NCBI GenBank assembly: GCA_024403675.1
Contig: JAKSRH010000007.1
Span: forward strand, 1 to 64,000
Direction of reading: 5' to 3'
Source: Saccharofermentans sp.
GTDB taxonomy: Bacteria; Bacillota; Clostridia; Saccharofermentanales; Saccharofermentanaceae
DNA length: 64,000 nt
Below, one piece after another: positions 14,090-36,042 of this stretch (positions within the stretch are counted from its first letter, which is position 1; each line of letters opens with the position of its first letter). The translations under genes were made by a program, and so were the position numbers. The notes beneath the pieces are model-generated. The model saw only the letters and a program-made list of their open reading frames with translations. It made no database searches and was not told where the DNA came from.

Positions 14090-14146
14090 TTCGCGTAAAA
14101 AACAATTCCTATAGTAAGGCAGGTGTGCTGTCTCACTATTTTTAAT
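14090..14146 (+). repeat. Cassette leader element E1
   Basis: TTCGCG (14090-14095), 14 bases, TATAGT (14110-14115). A hairpin (GTAAGGCAG / CTGTCTCAC) and TATTTTT follow. It lies directly before the ribosome site of the gene at 14165. It is one of six such elements in this region. Confidence 0.65.
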
Positions 14147-14164
14147 GAAAAGAGGTAAACAAAA

Positions 14165-14770
14165 ATGAGAAAAGTTGCAAAAGTATTTTTGATGGTCCTG
14201 ATTGTCTTGGCTGTGCTATTAGTAGTAATTAATAGGATTACCTATTATATGTGCACAAAGACACTGTCAAATCTTCCGGTAACGGGTGCTAGTGTGATTA
14301 AGGCACTAGATGAACAAGGGATAAATAGTCCTCTAGTTAATGAAGATGGATTGATCATCTTTGAACAATACTATTTTGATGGTGACCCCAAAAATAACTA
14401 TCACATAAGTGGACGCTATGAAGTGTGTGACGATGTAGAAGAGGCAGGAATTCTCTTTGATGATATTCTCTTGGAATCACGAAGACTGAATCATCAAGAT
14501 GAAATAGATATATGTGAATTTCCATATTATCAGATGGCCAAGTGTTTCTTTGTGGAAACAGATAGAAGTTATACTGCGTGTTATCAGTCAGGTAATAAGG
14601 TGTTCTTCATATCGGCAAGTGCTATGGAAGAAAGTGATAATTCCTTGCCACAAGCAGGTATCGACAGTGTTAAGGAGATTCTGAATAGTCTTGAAATGCC
14701 ACTTCACGATAGTCCAGTTATATTCGCGTCAAAAACCATTCTTATAGCAGAGAGATTTAACCATAACTAA
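14165..14770 (+). CDS. Membrane-anchored protein of unknown function
   Basis: The 201-residue protein has one N-terminal membrane anchor (about residues 7-27, FLMVLIVLAVLLVVI) and an outward-facing domain with no motif I recognise. Its last 16 or so residues (from VIFASKTIL) are encoded by element E2, which suggests the original 3' end was replaced or cut by that element. ATG follows AAGAGG. It is flanked by E1 upstream and E2 at its 3' end and belongs to the run of small accessory genes. Confidence 0.7.
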   Translation: MRKVAKVFLMVLIVLAVLLVVINRITYYMCTKTLSNLPVTGASVIKALDEQGINSPLVNEDGLIIFEQYYFDGDPKNNYHISGRYEVCDDVEEAGILFDDILLESRRLNHQDEIDICEFPYYQMAKCFFVETDRSYTACYQSGNKVFFISASAMEESDNSLPQAGIDSVKEILNSLEMPLHDSPVIFASKTILIAERFNHN

Positions 14771-14780
14771 AAGTCTCTCA
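14723..14780 (+). repeat. Cassette leader element E2
   Basis: TTCGCG (14723-14728), 14 bases, TATAGC (14743-14748), then GAGAGA and TCTCTC arms and an AT-rich end. It overlaps the last codons of the gene at 14165 and precedes the ribosome site of the next small gene. Confidence 0.6.
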
Positions 14781-14806
14781 ATATTATAAGAAAGGAGGTG
14801 GCTACA

Positions 14807-14980
14807 GTGCTCATCTATAGGATTGAAAGGTGTGCTGAAGCTGGAGACCCTAATTGCTTTTACTACATCGAGTATCGCAGAGAGGGAAGAGTAATAGCTA
14901 TGTACAAAATCACACACTACAAAGTGCATGACAATAAAGGTGCACACTACAAAACAACTACTGATTTACTCAATGCCTGA
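14807..14980 (+). CDS. Small protein of unknown function (57 aa)
   Basis: The frame begins at GTG 14807, eight bases after a full AAAGGAGG. A GTG at 14798 in the same frame overlaps the ribosome site and is unlikely. The product starts MLIYRIERCAEAGDPNCFYY and ends TTTDLLNA. It is polar, with no membrane segment and no known motif. It sits between elements E2 and E3. The strong ribosome site is the main support. Confidence 0.6.
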   Translation: MLIYRIERCAEAGDPNCFYYIEYRREGRVIAMYKITHYKVHDNKGAHYKTTTDLLNA

Positions 14981-15040
14981 AATGACAGTGATGATACTTT
15001 GCCCAGCTGGCTTAAGGTGTTGGTAAGTAGGTAACAAAAA

Positions 15041-15105
15041 TTCGCGCGTAAAACAAATTGTATAGAAGAAAAGGGGACTTACCTGATGGTGAGCCTCCTT
15101 ATTTA
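15041..15105 (+). repeat. Cassette leader element E3
   Basis: TTCGCG (15041-15046), 14 bases, TATAGA (15061-15066). A long imperfect hairpin (AAGGGGACTTACC / GGTGAGCCTCCTT) and TATTT follow. It precedes the FtsH-like gene. Confidence 0.65.
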
Positions 15106-15120
15106 TGAAAGGAAGAAATT

Positions 15121-16386
15121 ATGAGTGCATTTGATAAGGTAATCGGTTATAAGAGCATTAAAGAAGAACTTCTTAAGATTGTAGATATGGTGAAAAATAG
15201 AGATGTGTATCAGGAGATGGGAACTAAACTTCCACGCGGTATTCTTCTTACGGGTAACCCAGGCATGGGAAAAACATTGATTGCTAGCTGTTTTGTGGAA
15301 GATACGGGACTGCCTGCGTTTATCATCAGAAGAGATAATGGTAATGATGATTTTATCAAGAAGGTGATAAATACCTTTGAGGAAGCAAAAGCAAATACTC
15401 CATCTATCGTAATATTAGATGATATGGATAAGTTTGCTAATGTGGATGTTAAGTATAGAAATGCTCCTGAATACATAGCAGTTCAGACAGGTATCGATAA
15501 TGTAAGTGGTAGTGATGTAATTGTGTTTGCTACTGTGAATAATTTGGAAAAGCTTCCAGAGTCACTTGTAAGATCTGGTAGATTTGATTTCAAGTTTGTT
15601 CTTGATAAGCCATCACGCAGTGAAGCTAAGGAGATAATTCAGTATTTCTTATCTGATAGAAAAGTGGATAAGGAGCTGGATTATGAGAATCTATATAGGA
15701 TGGTAAGTGATAAATCTTGTGCAGATCTTGAGTCAATAATCAATAAGGCGACATTATATGCAGGTATGGAACGCAAGCGTTATGCTGATATGGATGATCT
15801 AGTTCGTGTGATTAGAGAGGAGTATTTTGAATTTCATAATACTAATAAGAATGCTGATTATGATGCTAGAAAGGTGGCACTCCATGAAGCAGCTCATCTT
15901 GTGGTAAGTGAAGTGCTTGTTCCGGAAAGTGTTGGCATGGTAGCAATAAAGAAGACGGGGGACAAATCGCATGGTGGATTCGTTCATTTGTGTGAGCTAA
16001 AAGATGACATTCGCTATGATGTTCTAATTAGTCTAGCGAGTAGGGCTGTCATGGACCTTTACTATAGCGATATGGTTAATTATGGAGTGTCAGGCGATTT
16101 GGAATCAGCACACAAGATAATCAAGAATATGATTCTAAATAATGCTACAAATGGATTTGCTCACTATGATCCAGATCCATACAAAATGAATATTGACCGC
16201 GAAAGTAAAGTTGTTATTGCAAGTGAACTTGAAAGGTATCTAACTATTGCCAGAAAAATACTTATTGATAACCGCTCGTTCTTGGATGCAATAAGTAACG
16301 CTCTTTATGAGAAAGAGACACTGTTATATTCAGATGTTCAGGAGATAAAGAGTAAGGTACATATAGTGACTCCGTCTTTGTTCTAA
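15121..16386 (+). CDS. Soluble FtsH-like AAA+ metalloprotease
   Basis: The 421-residue protein has an AAA+ module. Walker A is GNPGMGKT (residues 45-52), Walker B is IVILDDMDK, sensor 1 is FATVNN, and arginine-finger region SLVRSGRFD follows. After it comes a peptidase M41-like domain with the zinc site HEAAH (His255, Glu256, His259) and a candidate third ligand Asp in VSGDLESAH. All catalytic parts of FtsH are present. The N-terminal membrane helices are absent and the chain is much shorter than FtsH (about 600-650). It should be a cytoplasmic ATP-driven protease with an unknown target. ATG follows AAAGGAAG. Elements E3 and E4 flank it, marking it as part of the accessory gene run. Confidence 0.82.
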   Translation: MSAFDKVIGYKSIKEELLKIVDMVKNRDVYQEMGTKLPRGILLTGNPGMGKTLIASCFVEDTGLPAFIIRRDNGNDDFIKKVINTFEEAKANTPSIVILDDMDKFANVDVKYRNAPEYIAVQTGIDNVSGSDVIVFATVNNLEKLPESLVRSGRFDFKFVLDKPSRSEAKEIIQYFLSDRKVDKELDYENLYRMVSDKSCADLESIINKATLYAGMERKRYADMDDLVRVIREEYFEFHNTNKNADYDARKVALHEAAHLVVSEVLVPESVGMVAIKKTGDKSHGGFVHLCELKDDIRYDVLISLASRAVMDLYYSDMVNYGVSGDLESAHKIIKNMILNNATNGFAHYDPDPYKMNIDRESKVVIASELERYLTIARKILIDNRSFLDAISNALYEKETLLYSDVQEIKSKVHIVTPSLF

Positions 16387-16445
16387 TTCGTGTGAAATAC
16401 AATTCGTATAACAAGAGGCCACCAGTGTTGGTGGTCTATTGTTAT
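16386..16445 (+). repeat. Cassette leader element E4 (identical to E5)
   Basis: TTCGTG (16387-16392), 14 bases, TATAAC (16407-16412), then the hairpin GGCCACC-AGTGTT-GGTGGTC. Positions 16386-16434 are identical to 17361-17409 over 49 bp. The remaining 150 bp before the next gene are AT-rich with no recognised feature. Confidence 0.7.
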
Positions 16446-16597
16446 ATCGATTATTTATTTGTATTTGAGAATTTGATTAATGTAATTTATCCAAGAATGT
16501 GAAAACTAATTAATTTATAGAATGTATATTAACAATAATACGAATCTAAAATGATTCAGAAAGGAGCACATCGTAAATTCAAAATTATGGAGGTACT

Positions 16598-16984
16598 ATG
16601 AGCGAAAAGACACCAAAGAAAATTGCCAAGAACAGTTTAAAAGAAATAAATGATTTAGGTAATAATAGTTCTAACGGCATAGTACAAAATACAAAAGCAG
16701 GAATAGATGGTTTTTCTAAGGCTGAGATTTATACTGATGGTAGTCCGGAGATTATAGATGTTTATAAACATGCAGTTGAAGATTCCGAACCCAATGTACG
16801 TCTCGCAGCTATAGAAGCAATAGATCGCAAAGAGGAGCATTTATATCAATTACAACTAGATGCAAACCGAAAGAAAATGAAAATAACTTTTTGGGGTTTA
16901 CTGAGTATGTTTGTTGTGACAGTTGTACGTGTAATTGCACCCTATATTCCAAGCATAATTGCAAGTTTAAAAAAAGCAGAATAA
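16598..16984 (+). CDS. Small tail-anchored membrane protein of unknown function
   Basis: The 128-residue protein has a polar N-terminal region and a helical middle (VRLAAIEAIDRKEEHL). There is one membrane segment near the C terminus, about residues 97-120 (FWGLLSMFVVTVVRVIA). ATG follows GGAGG. The form suggests a tail-anchored protein facing the cytoplasm. I do not recognise a family. Confidence 0.7.
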   Translation: MSEKTPKKIAKNSLKEINDLGNNSSNGIVQNTKAGIDGFSKAEIYTDGSPEIIDVYKHAVEDSEPNVRLAAIEAIDRKEEHLYQLQLDANRKKMKITFWGLLSMFVVTVVRVIAPYIPSIIASLKKAE

Positions 16985-17033
16985 CTGATTCGTAACTTAA
17001 AAGTTAGTGTTTTTACGATGTGTTTCTAAATTG

Positions 17034-17066
17034 CACCCTGAGAATAATTGTATTCTCAGGGTGTTT
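17034..17066 (+). terminator. Strong hairpin between two small genes
   Basis: A perfect 13-bp stem (17034-17046 with 17051-17063) with an ATTG loop and a TTTATT end. It terminates the gene at 16598. There is no TTCGYG box here, unlike the neighbouring intergenic regions. Confidence 0.8.
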
Positions 17067-17081
17067 ATTAAAGGAGGTTGT

Positions 17082-17306
17082 ATGTTTGGTAAGTTTGATA
17101 AATGGTTAAAAACCGCTTCTGATGAAGAATTAATGGCAGTATATGATAAGGAACGAATTGAATACTTCTATATATATGGTAAACGCAGTAAGAAAATGGA
17201 GAAAATAAATGATGAAATAACTCGTCGTTCTGTGAAAAAGGATATATCATCAGATGATTCTCCAAAATCAAATCGCCGCTGGACGGATACAAATAGATGG
17301 GAATAA
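17082..17306 (+). CDS. Small charged protein with RWTDxNRW tail (74 aa)
   Basis: ATG at 17082 follows AAAGGAGG. The product begins MFGKFDKWLKTASDEELMAV and ends SNRRWTDTNRWE. It is highly charged, probably helical, with an aromatic C-terminal motif. I recall similar small uncharacterised proteins in Lachnospiraceae accessory DNA but cannot give a function. It is part of the run of short genes at 14-18 kb. Confidence 0.65.
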   Translation: MFGKFDKWLKTASDEELMAVYDKERIEYFYIYGKRSKKMEKINDEITRRSVKKDISSDDSPKSNRRWTDTNRWE

Positions 17307-17360
17307 AATTATGATGATATGTATGTGATTTGGTAATGAAATTAATTGACTGCTAATTAT

Positions 17361-17415
17361 ATTCGTGTGAAATACAATTCGTATAACAAGAGGCCACCAG
17401 TGTTGGTGGCCTTAA
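17361..17415 (+). repeat. Cassette leader element E5 (identical to E4)
   Basis: TTCGTG (17362-17367), 14 bases, TATAAC (17382-17387), hairpin GGCCACC-AGTGTT-GGTGGCC. It precedes the ribosome site of the gene at 17436. Confidence 0.7.
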
Positions 17416-17435
17416 TTGTATTAAGGAGGTGTTAC

Positions 17436-17783
17436 ATGTTTTCGGTAAAAGAATGGTTAGTAATAGCGATTGCGATAATTGTTGCAGGTGTAGAAGCTTT
17501 TGTGTTAGCAAAAGTGTTTGTAATTTGTAAATTTGACTGGTTGCCAGAAAGTATCAAGTGGACTAGGTACAAGTATTTGGTGAGGTTTGAATCATGTAAT
17601 GGTCAGTTTGTCGACTATATTTACAAAGATGAAATAGCTTCATATATAAGCTATATAAAGCTCCGAGTAAAATATGGTCGAGACAGAGTTGAGAGAGTTA
17701 CATTAACGAGAAAAGAACAGATTAATTATGGGTTAAAACCGAATAGAAATTTCGCGCAAAATACAAAGGTAATAGAGAGGTAA
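17436..17783 (+). CDS. Small membrane-anchored protein of unknown function (115 aa)
   Basis: ATG at 17436 follows AAGGAGG. Residues 7-31 form one membrane helix (WLVIAIAIIVAGVEAFVLA). The rest is a basic, probably beta-rich domain. The last ten residues (from NFAQNTK) are encoded by element E6, the second case in this region where such an element forms a gene's 3' end. No family recognised. Confidence 0.65.
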   Translation: MFSVKEWLVIAIAIIVAGVEAFVLAKVFVICKFDWLPESIKWTRYKYLVRFESCNGQFVDYIYKDEIASYISYIKLRVKYGRDRVERVTLTRKEQINYGLKPNRNFAQNTKVIER

Positions 17784-17802
17784 GTGGACCTTGCCTCTCT
17801 AT
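17751..17802 (+). repeat. Cassette leader element E6
   Basis: TTCGCG (17751-17756), 14 bases, AATAGA (17771-17776). This begins a long stem AATAGAGAGGTAAG / CTTGCCTCTCTATT followed by TTATT. It overlaps the end of the gene at 17436 and precedes that at 17825. Confidence 0.6.
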
Positions 17803-17824
17803 TTTATTAATTGGAGGAAAATAT

Positions 17825-30749: not shown

Positions 30750-32273
30750 ATGCGTAATTTCGCGAATATTAAGAGTGCAAAAATATGTGTAAGCCGCATT
30801 AGTCCAACTAATTCTGACGTGGGTTCTGAAGCGGATTCTAGTGCAGATTCCAAAGTAGGTTCTAACTCGGATTTCAACTTGAATTCGGAGGAGAATCGTG
30901 ATGTCAGAGAAAAGGTGTTTTGCGTAGTGAATTATGCTTATAGTAATGGTATTGCGATTCATGCAAGCGACGTGTTAAATCTTGTTAAAAATAAAGAAAT
31001 CATTTTGATTAAAGATGTTTGTGATTTTGTTGATTTTATTGCATTAATACAGCATTTTTCCAATCTTGAATATATGCTCGGATTTCTTGGGTTTAGGTTC
31101 ATGGCCAAGGCTGAAGTGGAGTTTTCATTTAATGAGGGGGAGTTTATTGAGGTCAGTATGGCTGATTCTAGATGTGTAAATCTTAATGTCTGTAGTGGTG
31201 TGTTCTCTGCCATTGGACAGACTATGACTAGGGGAATGAATGCTGTTAGGGTTGGTGGTTCTAGAAGGAATTATAAGAACCCTCTTATTCGCAAAAGTGA
31301 TTTGCCTGTAATCAAAGAGATTCTTTCTGGCAAGGATAATGCTGAAAAGAATGGATATAGAAAGTCAAAGGCGGTCGCAGATTATTGTAATCTTGTGGTG
31401 GCCCCAACTAAGTTTAATGATATGACGCCTGAAGTTCAGTATTCCGAGGTTTATTCACTCATGGCTCAGAATAATCTTCCTCCGGAGGTTATTGATCAGC
31501 TTTGCCCAGCGATTCGTCGCTATATTGCTAAGGGTGAGATAAGCCCTATCCTCATGATTGGTGAGGGCGGTATCGGCAAGACTATGACAGCTCAGATAAT
31601 TAGTAATATTCTTGGTATCCCATTTAAACAGATTAGTGCGACGAATATGGCGACTAGTATGGGGTTTGCTGGTACCGCTGCTCACTATACTTGCGCTGAT
31701 GTAGGAGAACTTACTCGATTGATGCTTGATAACGGACAGTGTAATGTATCGATGCTCATCGATGAGATTGATAAGTGTCAGGCAGGTGGAAGTGGTGTCA
31801 ATCTCGAGAATGAACTTCTTAGTGTGTGTGATGGTTCTCGCTGCATCATGGATAAGTTCATGGGAATTGAGGTTAACTTGTCTAAGACCCTCATTTTTCT
31901 TACTGCTAATGATGAGAGTGCTATCTCGCCTTATCTTCGTGATAGATGTGTAAAGGTGTATTTCCCTAAGCCTACTCTGGATCGCTTGGAGACTATTGTT
32001 CTTAGAAAGTTTTTTTACATGGCTACGGATGATGTGATTAATGAACATCTTGATTATGACGAGGATGTTCTTACTAGAGGAATTCAGAAGCTTTGGGATA
32101 AGGGTATCCGTTCTTTCAGACCTTATCTTAATTATATTGACGCTTTATATCATGTGGTGGAGAAGACTTACTTCGAGACAGGTAATGATGTTGTGATCTC
32201 TGATCAGATGGTAGATGGAATTGTGGATAAAGTACGTAGTTCTTACGGAAATACTATTGGTTTTAGTTCTTAA
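30750..32273 (+). CDS. Lon-like AAA+ ATPase, module copy 1
   Basis: The 507-residue protein has an unrecognised N-terminal domain (about 1-180), then an AAA+ domain. Walker A is GEGGIGKT (271-278), Walker B is LIDEIDK (about 336-342), sensor 1 is IFLTAND and the arginine region is YLRDRC. The sequence between them (ISATNMATSMGFAG) is of the Lon/MoxR kind. A helical lid follows. There is no peptidase domain and no catalytic Ser-Lys dyad. It aligns with the second copy at 34531-36042 along its length. It probably remodels a partner protein or nucleoprotein. ATG follows AAGGAG. Confidence 0.78.
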   Translation: MRNFANIKSAKICVSRISPTNSDVGSEADSSADSKVGSNSDFNLNSEENRDVREKVFCVVNYAYSNGIAIHASDVLNLVKNKEIILIKDVCDFVDFIALIQHFSNLEYMLGFLGFRFMAKAEVEFSFNEGEFIEVSMADSRCVNLNVCSGVFSAIGQTMTRGMNAVRVGGSRRNYKNPLIRKSDLPVIKEILSGKDNAEKNGYRKSKAVADYCNLVVAPTKFNDMTPEVQYSEVYSLMAQNNLPPEVIDQLCPAIRRYIAKGEISPILMIGEGGIGKTMTAQIISNILGIPFKQISATNMATSMGFAGTAAHYTCADVGELTRLMLDNGQCNVSMLIDEIDKCQAGGSGVNLENELLSVCDGSRCIMDKFMGIEVNLSKTLIFLTANDESAISPYLRDRCVKVYFPKPTLDRLETIVLRKFFYMATDDVINEHLDYDEDVLTRGIQKLWDKGIRSFRPYLNYIDALYHVVEKTYFETGNDVVISDQMVDGIVDKVRSSYGNTIGFSS

Positions 32274-32293: not shown

Positions 32294-33262
32294 ATGACTA
32301 TGGATACAGTGGAATATATTATTGATCAGTATTGGAAGTATATGAATGGTATACGTGATCGGTTCGACATAGAAGAACTTTCCTGTGAGACGGGTGAGGA
32401 CTATGAAAATGTGTCGATTATTGTTGATTCCATGGAACACAGGGGTGAGGTTAGTAATTATGTTATTTTTAACGAACTTGGGGTTACTCCTGAGGATCTT
32501 GTCGAGTATCAGAGACTTAGGATTCCAAGTAATGAAGCCTACAATAACAGCGTGAATTTTTTATTATTCGAAAACGAATATATTGGGGATGATTTGGCAG
32601 AGATTGATTCACTTTGTGATGGGGTCTCTAAGGCGGCTGCCTACAATATAGTTTTCCGTTGGTTCGAAGATATTTGGAAGTATATCAATGAGAAGTGCCC
32701 TGATCTTGGGGATGATAAGAAGTATGTGCTTCTGATGAATGTTATTGAACGTATGGTGCTTGATGTGCTTAGTACAGGACTTTGTAGTGGTTTGACTATG
32801 AAAGACATGATAGAGAGAAACTTTGCCATTTGTGCAGTGGCTAAGGACTGTGAAATTGAGCCTGAGGCTAATGCGTTCGAGGATACGGTAGATAACTATA
32901 GACTTGATATTCCATCGTGTGAGCAGTTCAGAGATTTGTGTTCATGTCTTAAGGTGTCCTTAAAGCTTCTTGATGAAGAGGATAGTGACGATATCCCTGA
33001 TTACTTGAGAATAGTCGCTGAAAGATGTGCTCTTAAGTATTATGAGCATATCTATTCCATTATTAAATTCAATAAAGACAAGCTTACTAATTTTGAAATG
33101 GGTAATATATTTATAGGGGTATTATCTTATATTGCAGACTTGTTTTTGGAGCGTAATTTCCTCGCATCTCTTCCACAGGGGGATGGAATAAAGCGTCTCG
33201 TGGAGCATGCATATATGTACAGATTTATTCTTATGAAGGGTTATGTGCCTAATCTTGGTTAA
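32294..33262 (+). CDS. Module protein X2 (paralogue of 29355-30335)
   Basis: The 322-residue protein has the same plan as X1: a winged-helix-like start (RFDIEELSCETGEDYENV ... HRGEVSNYVIFNELGVT) and an all-helical body with KKYVLLMNVIERMVLD and ERCALKYYEHIY. It follows AAA1 by 20 bp with AGGAGG as ribosome site, so X1, AAA1 and X2 may be partly co-transcribed. The X1/X2 divergence is high, so the duplication is old. Function unknown, with DNA binding suggested by the N terminus. Confidence 0.7.
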   Translation: MTMDTVEYIIDQYWKYMNGIRDRFDIEELSCETGEDYENVSIIVDSMEHRGEVSNYVIFNELGVTPEDLVEYQRLRIPSNEAYNNSVNFLLFENEYIGDDLAEIDSLCDGVSKAAAYNIVFRWFEDIWKYINEKCPDLGDDKKYVLLMNVIERMVLDVLSTGLCSGLTMKDMIERNFAICAVAKDCEIEPEANAFEDTVDNYRLDIPSCEQFRDLCSCLKVSLKLLDEEDSDDIPDYLRIVAERCALKYYEHIYSIIKFNKDKLTNFEMGNIFIGVLSYIADLFLERNFLASLPQGDGIKRLVEHAYMYRFILMKGYVPNLG

Positions 33263-34530: not shown

Positions 34531-36042
34531 ATGTGTAAATATGCGCACATTGATAGTTTGACCATGAGTTGTTCTCAGATTCGTGAGGAGGGCGAAGGTC
34601 TTAAATATGATAGAAGAAGACTTCGTTATTTGACGGCCTATGCCATTAATAATGGAATTTGTTTTGAGTATGACGACTTGATTAATGAGGCTAAGAATAT
34701 AGAAGTATCTTTATTGAGTGATGAGGTTAGCTATCTCGAATATATGAAGCTTCAGCAGATTGCTAGTAATATCGCTTATGTTGCTGCTCTTATTGGATAC
34801 AAGATTGAGTTTAGTATCGATGTAGAGTATCGATTTGATGGTGAGATGACTAAAGAGGATTTTGGAGACTTCCGTTCTGTGGATCTTAAGGTCTGTGATA
34901 ATTTGCTTTATAGCCGTGATGAATATAATCCTGTATTTGCTGGTGAAGAATATCCATGGGACTATGATATTGAGGCGATTTTGGGTATGGACGAGATGGA
35001 AAATCAGGCTGAGGTGAGTACGGTGGGCTTTGCTGAGAGAACGGAATTTATGAACCCTCTTCTTAGCAGGAAGGACTATGAGTCGATTCGTAAGATTCTT
35101 TCGGGTAATTATGACGCAGAAAAGAATGGTGCTCGTAGAGTTAAGTGTGTTTCGGATTTTTGTAATATCGGAATCGCACCGACTAGATTCGACAGTATGT
35201 CGGCGGTGGAGGTGTATAACTCGATTCGTAAAGCACTTGAAGAAGCAAATGTGCCATCTGTTATTATCAAGCTTTTGTGTCCAGCTCTTAGGAAGTATTG
35301 TGAAACCGGTGAATGGAAGCCTGTGATTCTGGTTGGAAAAGGCGGTGTAGGTAAGACTAAGACAGCTCAGATTATCGCAGATATTGTTGGTCTTCCTTTT
35401 AAACAGGTATCGGCTACTAACATGGCGACTAGTTTTGGTCTCGGGGGCTGTGCACCTCATTACACCTCGGCGGATTGTGGCGTGCTTACTAGACATATGA
35501 TTGATAATAGCGCGCTTAATGTGGCCTTTCTTGTTGATGAGATTGATAAGTGTCAGTCTGGAGGTAGTGGAGTTAATCTTGAATATGAGTTGCTTTCTGT
35601 GTGTGATGGTACTTCGCTCATTCACGACAAGTTTATGGGTATTGATGTTAACACCAGTCGCTGCATGATTTTTCTTACAGCTAATGATGAACGTGATATC
35701 TCACCTTATCTTCGTGATCGTTGTGAGATTATTCATTTTCCGGAACCAACTCTCGATCGTATTAAAGTGATTATTCTCAACAAGTTTTACACGAGAAAAA
35801 ACAAGGACTCAGTTCTTAAATATGTGGACTTTGATGAGAGTATTGTGACTGATGGCATTGATGTTCTTTGGGAAAGAGAGTGTAGGTCTTTCAGGGCTTA
35901 TGAGCACTTCCTTGATGAACTTTTCCGTGAAGTGGAAAGACGTTATTTTGAGAGTAATGGTAAGCCGATAGTATCCAAGGATATTGTTGAATTTATTGTT
36001 GGTAACATCCGTTCCGTGTATGGAAATAAAATTGGATTTTGA
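34531..36042 (+). CDS. Lon-like AAA+ ATPase, module copy 2
   Basis: The 503-residue protein has an N-terminal domain (about 1-170) related to that of AAA1 only loosely. Its AAA+ domain has Walker A GKGGVGKT (269-276), Walker B LVDEIDK, sensor 1 IFLTAND and YLRDRC. The blocks SATNMATS, IDKCQSGGSGVNLE and DKFMGI are almost the same as in copy 1. The C terminus ends YGNKIGF, as copy 1 ends YGNTIGF. No protease domain. ATG follows AGGAGG. It lies between the sigma-like and HIRAN-like genes, with short gaps. Confidence 0.78.
   Translation: MCKYAHIDSLTMSCSQIREEGEGLKYDRRRLRYLTAYAINNGICFEYDDLINEAKNIEVSLLSDEVSYLEYMKLQQIASNIAYVAALIGYKIEFSIDVEYRFDGEMTKEDFGDFRSVDLKVCDNLLYSRDEYNPVFAGEEYPWDYDIEAILGMDEMENQAEVSTVGFAERTEFMNPLLSRKDYESIRKILSGNYDAEKNGARRVKCVSDFCNIGIAPTRFDSMSAVEVYNSIRKALEEANVPSVIIKLLCPALRKYCETGEWKPVILVGKGGVGKTKTAQIIADIVGLPFKQVSATNMATSFGLGGCAPHYTSADCGVLTRHMIDNSALNVAFLVDEIDKCQSGGSGVNLEYELLSVCDGTSLIHDKFMGIDVNTSRCMIFLTANDERDISPYLRDRCEIIHFPEPTLDRIKVIILNKFYTRKNKDSVLKYVDFDESIVTDGIDVLWERECRSFRAYEHFLDELFREVERRYFESNGKPIVSKDIVEFIVGNIRSVYGNKIGF

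Follow-up and report, generated by a model that had tools for sequence, protein, structure and literature searches.

Candidate promoters of a phage early-promoter class in a chromosomal cluster of small genes from Saccharofermentans sp.

Six elements in a cluster of small accessory genes

The window analyzed here is a stretch of 64,000 nucleotides (nt) from Saccharofermentans sp. (contig JAKSRH010000007.1, positions 1 to 64,000), in which six copies of a short element, all on the + strand, are packed into 3.7 kb of a cluster of small genes. The original prediction, made from the sequence alone, proposed that this element is either an unusual promoter or a recombination site that joins gene cassettes. 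The comparisons described below provide strong evidence, at the sequence level, that the six copies belong to a class of phage early promoters of the form (T)TCGCR-N6-ACA-N5-TATAAT. The elements are as follows, with scores against a profile derived exclusively from 83 phage elements:

14090..14115, + strand: candidate promoter element 1, TTCGCG-N14-TATAGT, before the gene for a protein of 201 amino acids (aa); score 32.1, the best in the window
14723..14748, + strand: candidate promoter element 2, overlapping the 3' end of the 201-aa frame; score 13.2
15041..15066, + strand: candidate promoter element 3, before the AAA+ gene; score 15.1
16387..16412, + strand: candidate promoter element 4 (TTCGTG), immediately 3' of the AAA+ stop codon; score 16.4
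17362..17387, + strand: candidate promoter element 5, identical to element 4; score 17.4
17751..17776, + strand: candidate promoter element 6, with AATA in place of TATA; score 15.5

All six copies were recovered at the predicted positions and with the predicted spacing, that is, TTCGYG, exactly 14 bases and TATA in five of the six. The conserved stretch is wider than originally described, about 26 bp, with the consensus AAATTCGC(G/A)NNAAAAACAATTCCTATAGT. The layout of the window copies is TTCGC(G/A)-N2-AAAAACAATTCC-TATAGT, with single-base departures at 14723 (ACC), at 16387 and 17362 (TCGTG) and at 17751 (AATA). If one mismatch is allowed, TTCGYG-N14-TATA has 20 matches in the window, compared to 7.2 expected (maximum of 14 in 100 shuffles). 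Across the whole 2.07 Mb genome, matches to a stricter pattern, TTCGYGNNAAANACNNNNNNNATA, are confined to the six-copy cluster, and in 115 genomes of the family, TTCGYRNNNAAAACAANTNNTATA occurs only at the window locus and at the locus of one relative, with zero matches for the reversed-pattern controls. A similar density elsewhere without a link to genes, which would have spoken against a functional element, was looked for and was not observed.

The elements either run into the preceding gene or adjoin its end (those at 14723 and 17751 overlap its reading frame), and the predicted leader from the element to the next start codon is 42–52 nt long in five of the six copies and 179 nt long for element 4. 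The proposed arrangement of one element per small gene holds for most genes of the run, the exception being the gene at 17082–17306. A canonical −35 box is missing: for the six window elements, the best match to TTGACA at a distance of 16–18 bp covers two of the six positions, and a sigma-70 scan detected none of the six. A segment of 49 bp that includes the element and the hairpin arms is identical between 16386–16434 and 17361–17409 and brackets two genes, which may reflect a recent duplication or recombination. The genes of the cluster are:

14165..14770, + strand: 201-aa protein with an N-terminal hydrophobic segment; homologue in locus L050 32% identical; no Pfam or PHROG match
14807..14980, + strand: 57-aa protein; homologue in L050 33% identical
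15121..16386, + strand: FtsH-like AAA+ protein of 421 aa, with an AAA match and a weak Peptidase_M41 match
16598..16984, + strand: 128-aa protein with a weak HEAT match and a C-terminal hydrophobic segment
17082..17306, + strand: 74-aa protein, the one gene of the run that lacks an element
17436..17783, + strand: 115-aa protein with an N-terminal hydrophobic segment
17825..18337, + strand: 170-aa DUF6273 protein

The cluster is flanked by housekeeping genes, carAB/ThrE on one side and those for glutamine synthetase III and an ammonium transporter on the other, and the stretch between them is variable and AT-rich, with a GC content of 0.32–0.37 versus about 0.44 in the flanks. PADLOC matched the AAA+ protein to IetA through the ATPase region only, not over the whole protein, and returned no match for the other cluster proteins. 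The cluster proteins showed no relatedness to the proteins of motif-bearing phages, no viral relatives were recovered for the three small proteins that were searched, and a DNA-level comparison of the entire window with phages and plasmids gave no match. Scans of the window proteins revealed neither a structural gene nor an integrase or polymerase gene adjoining the array, and they gave no match to a recombinase. In Rfam, nothing reached the gathering threshold, and the sub-threshold matches were chance-like. Elsewhere in the window, two further AAA+ ATPases of similar size are encoded close together (30750–32273 and 34531–36042), each with the gene for an uncharacterized protein of about 300 aa before or after it; they might be duplicated two-gene modules. 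Beside them, 32294–33262 scores 25.2 bits against the Pfam family of the DNA mimic ocr, barely above the cut-off of 25.

The element class in phages and its association with a polymerase

The same class is found on the coding strand before early genes of tailed phages that encode an RNA polymerase of the YonO/QDE-1-like kind (phrog_4291). A search with the stringent pattern TTCGCRNNNAAAACAANTNCTATA yielded 15 viral contigs. As the search imposed only one copy per contig, any additional copies are informative, and in 13 of the 15 contigs the fetched stretch has multiple copies, all of them in front of small genes and many just after a terminator; tRNA-like genes are also preceded by this class, at the fixed promoter spacing. 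In these contigs and one prophage, the spacing between TTCGCR and TATAAT is 14 in 44 cases, and any other spacing occurs at most once. For the 12 full records searched, all matches lie on one strand per record.

A non-circular test comprised eleven cultured phages picked by polymerase and host, not by motif, together with six polymerase-free phages and SPbeta. The motif was present on the coding strand of nine of the eleven polymerase phages, with 3–16 copies each, spanning phages of Streptomyces, Arthrobacter, Gordonia, Rhodococcus, Microbacterium, Curtobacterium and Lactococcus as well as one from saliva. It was absent from all six polymerase-free phages and from SPbeta, and the reversed pattern matched once across all 18 records. 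In the cultured phages picked by polymerase, the spacing was again 14 (26 versus 2 cases). At positions not forced by the search, ACA was conserved in 109 of 116 elements and CGC at −30 in 102 of 118. The matches lie in early regions and near the polymerase gene (in Odesza and ReqiPepy6, a copy is located within a few kb upstream of it), and no copies were found in late-gene regions of the phages. The profile of phage elements gave its six highest scores in the window to the six copies (from 32.1 down to 13.2), with the next match at 9.3 and random-sequence maxima of up to 7.9. When it was applied to the relative G038, a second species, the three copies present there ranked first. These results favor the first option of the original prediction, an unusual promoter class, in the form of a recurrent phage early-promoter class with an invariant 14-bp spacing.

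The family phrog_4291, named RNA-dependent RNA polymerase, was detected in 9 of 13 motif-bearing viral records, the remainder being fragments of 20–26 kb, and is rare among cultured phages (250 of 50,697 records). All sixteen aligned polymerases contain the metal-binding signature SGADFDGD, are 41–57% identical to the L111 enzyme and come from phages with hosts of two phyla; their ends give weak matches to helix-turn-helix families. The −30 box varies with the lineage of the polymerase: it is TCGCR in phages with an enzyme at least 48% identical to that of L111, TCACA in CHPC971 (44%) and missing in P078 (41%). Lactococcus phage P078 (L157), one of the two polymerase phages negative for the motif, has at least nine copies of a TTTTACATACCC-TATAAT variant without a −30 box; in its 20–40 kb region, these candidate early promoters read TTTTACATACCC-TATAAT-GARAGGA, a natural variant that could be informative on the −30 box. 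A family of membrane proteins, each around 270 aa long (phrog_2152 in L107 and L109; for example, L160 14964–15785) is as widespread in the motif-bearing phages and fragments as the polymerase. No literature report of a promoter motif of phrog_4291 phages was found, with subscription papers outside the coverage. No credible polymerase was found in the genome under study (89% complete) or in 85 genomes of the genus, in which there was one weak partial match.

Conservation among relatives and the leader hairpins

In G038, the AAA+ homologue is 60% identical, and the neighboring 201-aa and 57-aa proteins are kept in order at 32–33% identity. Three elements were found in G038, two of which precede the same two genes as in the window. 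Related loci elsewhere in the genus have TTCGCA-N14-TATA, a GC-rich hairpin and then the ribosome site. Among 188 genomes of the order, matches to a strict form of the motif are limited to the genome under study, G038, G044 and G151; G044 has just one site, which falls within a reading frame, and the match of G151 is on a small phage-like contig. The bare pattern TTCGCR-N8-20-CTATARY shows no enrichment across the genus, and therefore the element does not represent a host-wide promoter class. Most of the 24 strict-pattern matches in the genome collection were dismissed as chance, with the clear exception of Eubacterium ramulus, in which copies are located on two contigs, one of them bearing the polymerase (a prophage). 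Directly 3' of one promoter copy in this prophage is a tRNA-like gene with an uncertain anticodon (L009 777–848, − strand). The AAA+ homologues of the genus sit in loci that resemble mobile elements, where a variant, GACAATTTRCG-N14-TATAATCARGG, precedes the AAA+ homologue or nearby genes, again with a dominant spacing of 14 (10 of 13). Sites of this variant are:

L054, 10596, − strand
L055, 15849, − strand
L056, 15475, − strand
L058, 3918, + strand
L060, 9744, + strand
L061, 10137, − strand

As originally described, each of the six copies in the window is followed by a hairpin of variable sequence (folding z scores from −1.9 to −6.2, computed for the 55 nt from the −10 box onward versus shuffled sequence). 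The hairpins differ between most copies, the exception being those at 16387 and 17362, the arms of which are identical as part of the 49-bp repeat. The leader hairpins are:

14111..14139, + strand: leader hairpin 1, terminator-like, z −1.9
14750..14779, + strand: leader hairpin 2, outer pairs covarying with L050 5797
15071..15100, + strand: leader hairpin 3, kept in G038, where the element is absent
16407..16446, + strand: leader hairpin 4, z −6.2
17386..17419, + strand: leader hairpin 5, found by a lenient terminator scan, z −2.9
17771..17803, + strand: leader hairpin 6, terminator-like, z −4.0

The outer pairs covary between species (CTTATA/TATAAG versus CCTATA/TATAGG). Five of the six window hairpins passed the lenient terminator scan, with only 2–5 T in the 8 nt 3' of the stem. 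Because the U-tracts are this short, the hairpins could equally well be stabilizing 5' stem-loops or terminators. For the bacterial copies, which come from about seven loci and hence are not fully independent, the median downstream z score is −3.2, with values below −2 in 11 of 16, whereas the median of the phage copies is −0.3, with 9 of 82 below −2 (p = 7.5e-7). Upstream hairpins follow the opposite trend (37 of 83 phage copies versus 2 of 16 bacterial copies). In the bacterial copies, the hairpin sits between promoter and gene, within the predicted 5' leader where it had originally been placed, whereas the terminator-like hairpin of the phages usually lies upstream of the element.

A proposed phage-switched operon, its alternatives and known systems

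The explanation that we favor, with somewhat more confidence than doubt, is an accessory operon on the chromosome that is controlled by early promoters of the phage type and is probably switched on by a phage-encoded factor. We infer that these candidate promoters may be active, that they may require a phage factor and that the hairpins may play a role in expression; that phage infection is the trigger seems to us about evenly balanced between true and false. The contacts would lie about one helical turn apart, with TCGCR near −30, ACA near −19 and TATAAT at −10. Three boxes with this spacing and without a −35 box would suit one protein on one face of the DNA, and the host enzyme would probably read such promoters poorly because the −35 box is missing. 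The promoters would drive the small accessory genes around the FtsH-like AAA+ protein, and upon infection a phage factor, either the phage polymerase or an activator bound at −30 together with the host enzyme, would turn these genes on. The leader hairpins might stabilize the short mRNAs or restrain background transcription by the host. A bacterial locus expressed in this manner could be an anti-phage or satellite-like module. A more specific version, which we consider unlikely, holds that TCGCR-N6-ACA-N5-TATAAT is the recognition sequence of the YonO/QDE-1-like polymerase and that the locus copies it, such that the invader's own polymerase would transcribe an anti-phage cluster and the hairpins would block the host enzyme while letting the phage enzyme pass.

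Several observations weigh against the favored explanation. The −10 box is sigma-A-like, which leaves room for transcription by the host; no phage of this host was identified; FP_oengus encodes the polymerase, and the motif was not detected in it; and SPbeta lacks the motif despite encoding YonO, which reads late genes there, whereas the elements precede early genes. Furthermore, the polymerase phages have a large core genome in common, and the association therefore does not point to the polymerase alone as the protein that reads the elements. The main rival, which is possible but clearly less probable, is that the promoters are derived from a phage and are now ordinary sigma-A promoters under host control, the locus being a remnant or a domesticated early module of a phage or mobile element, perhaps with a local regulator. 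The fit of the −10 box to sigma-A, the AT-richness of the locus, the abundance of small membrane proteins in phage early regions as well and the mobile-element-like setting of the AAA+ homologues in the genus are all in line with such a relic. However, the elements lack a −35 box, the cluster genes have no relatives in the motif phages, the protein scans detected no structural, integrase or polymerase gene next to the array, and the −30 and ACA boxes are conserved although the genome lacks the phage.

The other option of the original prediction, that is, recombination sites joining gene cassettes in the manner of integron attC sites, could explain the presence of one element per small gene, the variable hairpins and the two copies identical over 49 bp that flank two genes. 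Nevertheless, it now appears very improbable: elements of this class precede phage and tRNA-like genes at a fixed promoter spacing, gene order is conserved, and in two diverged species the element has the same genes on either side, no pair of attC-like cores (RYYYAAC/GTTRRRY) is present in 13.9–18.6 kb, and there is no recombinase among the window proteins scanned. It is just as hard to credit that the conserved stretch is part of the terminator of the preceding gene, with no function as a promoter. The terminator-like hairpins after five of the six copies and the overlap of two elements with upstream reading frames would fit, but in phages the terminator precedes the element and most copies have no hairpin after them, the element has a −10 box and, in most copies, a short predicted leader, and the G038 hairpin before the AAA+ gene persists without the element.

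The motif also points to bacterial loci that might detect an infection through their transcription with phage machinery, which would allow infection-triggered genes to be found even where they resemble no known defence system. The closest known systems are the early promoters of phrog_4291 phages, such as Arthrobacter phage Circum, Streptomyces phages Rima and Scap1 and Rhodococcus phage ReqiPepy6. They share with the window the TCGCR, ACA and TATA boxes with identical spacing and the multi-copy arrangement on one strand, with one copy before each small gene. The window differs in that its copies are on a bacterial chromosome without the polymerase, a hairpin follows the promoter and the genes are unrelated. 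Middle promoters of the T4 MotA type have a canonical −10 box and an activator box centred near −30 that replaces the −35 box; the present element differs in the box sequence and the additional ACA box, and no MotA homologue was identified. SPBRE, the 15-bp binding site of the repressor MrpR of SPbeta, is likewise a regulatory element of a phage that recurs in front of many genes (PMC10516654), but identity was rejected, given that SPbeta bears SPBRE and lacks the present element.

YonO of SPbeta, a polymerase of the same broad kind as those of the motif phages, transcribes one late operon from a promoter the sequence of which was reported as undetermined (PMC5467207). For YonO-like single-chain phage polymerases in general, the promoter was described as unknown (PMC5467207). 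The present motif, which accompanies the polymerase across phages of Actinobacteria and Firmicutes, is a directly testable candidate. In Thermus phage P23-45, which has two RNA polymerases, a repeated conserved motif was assigned to the two-barrel phage polymerase by mapping of transcription starts and chromatin immunoprecipitation sequencing (PMC10770324). The P23-45 motifs are AT-rich or GC-rich, the enzymes are distant and the present motif is known from sequence alone; P23-45 serves as a precedent for motif-specific phage polymerases.

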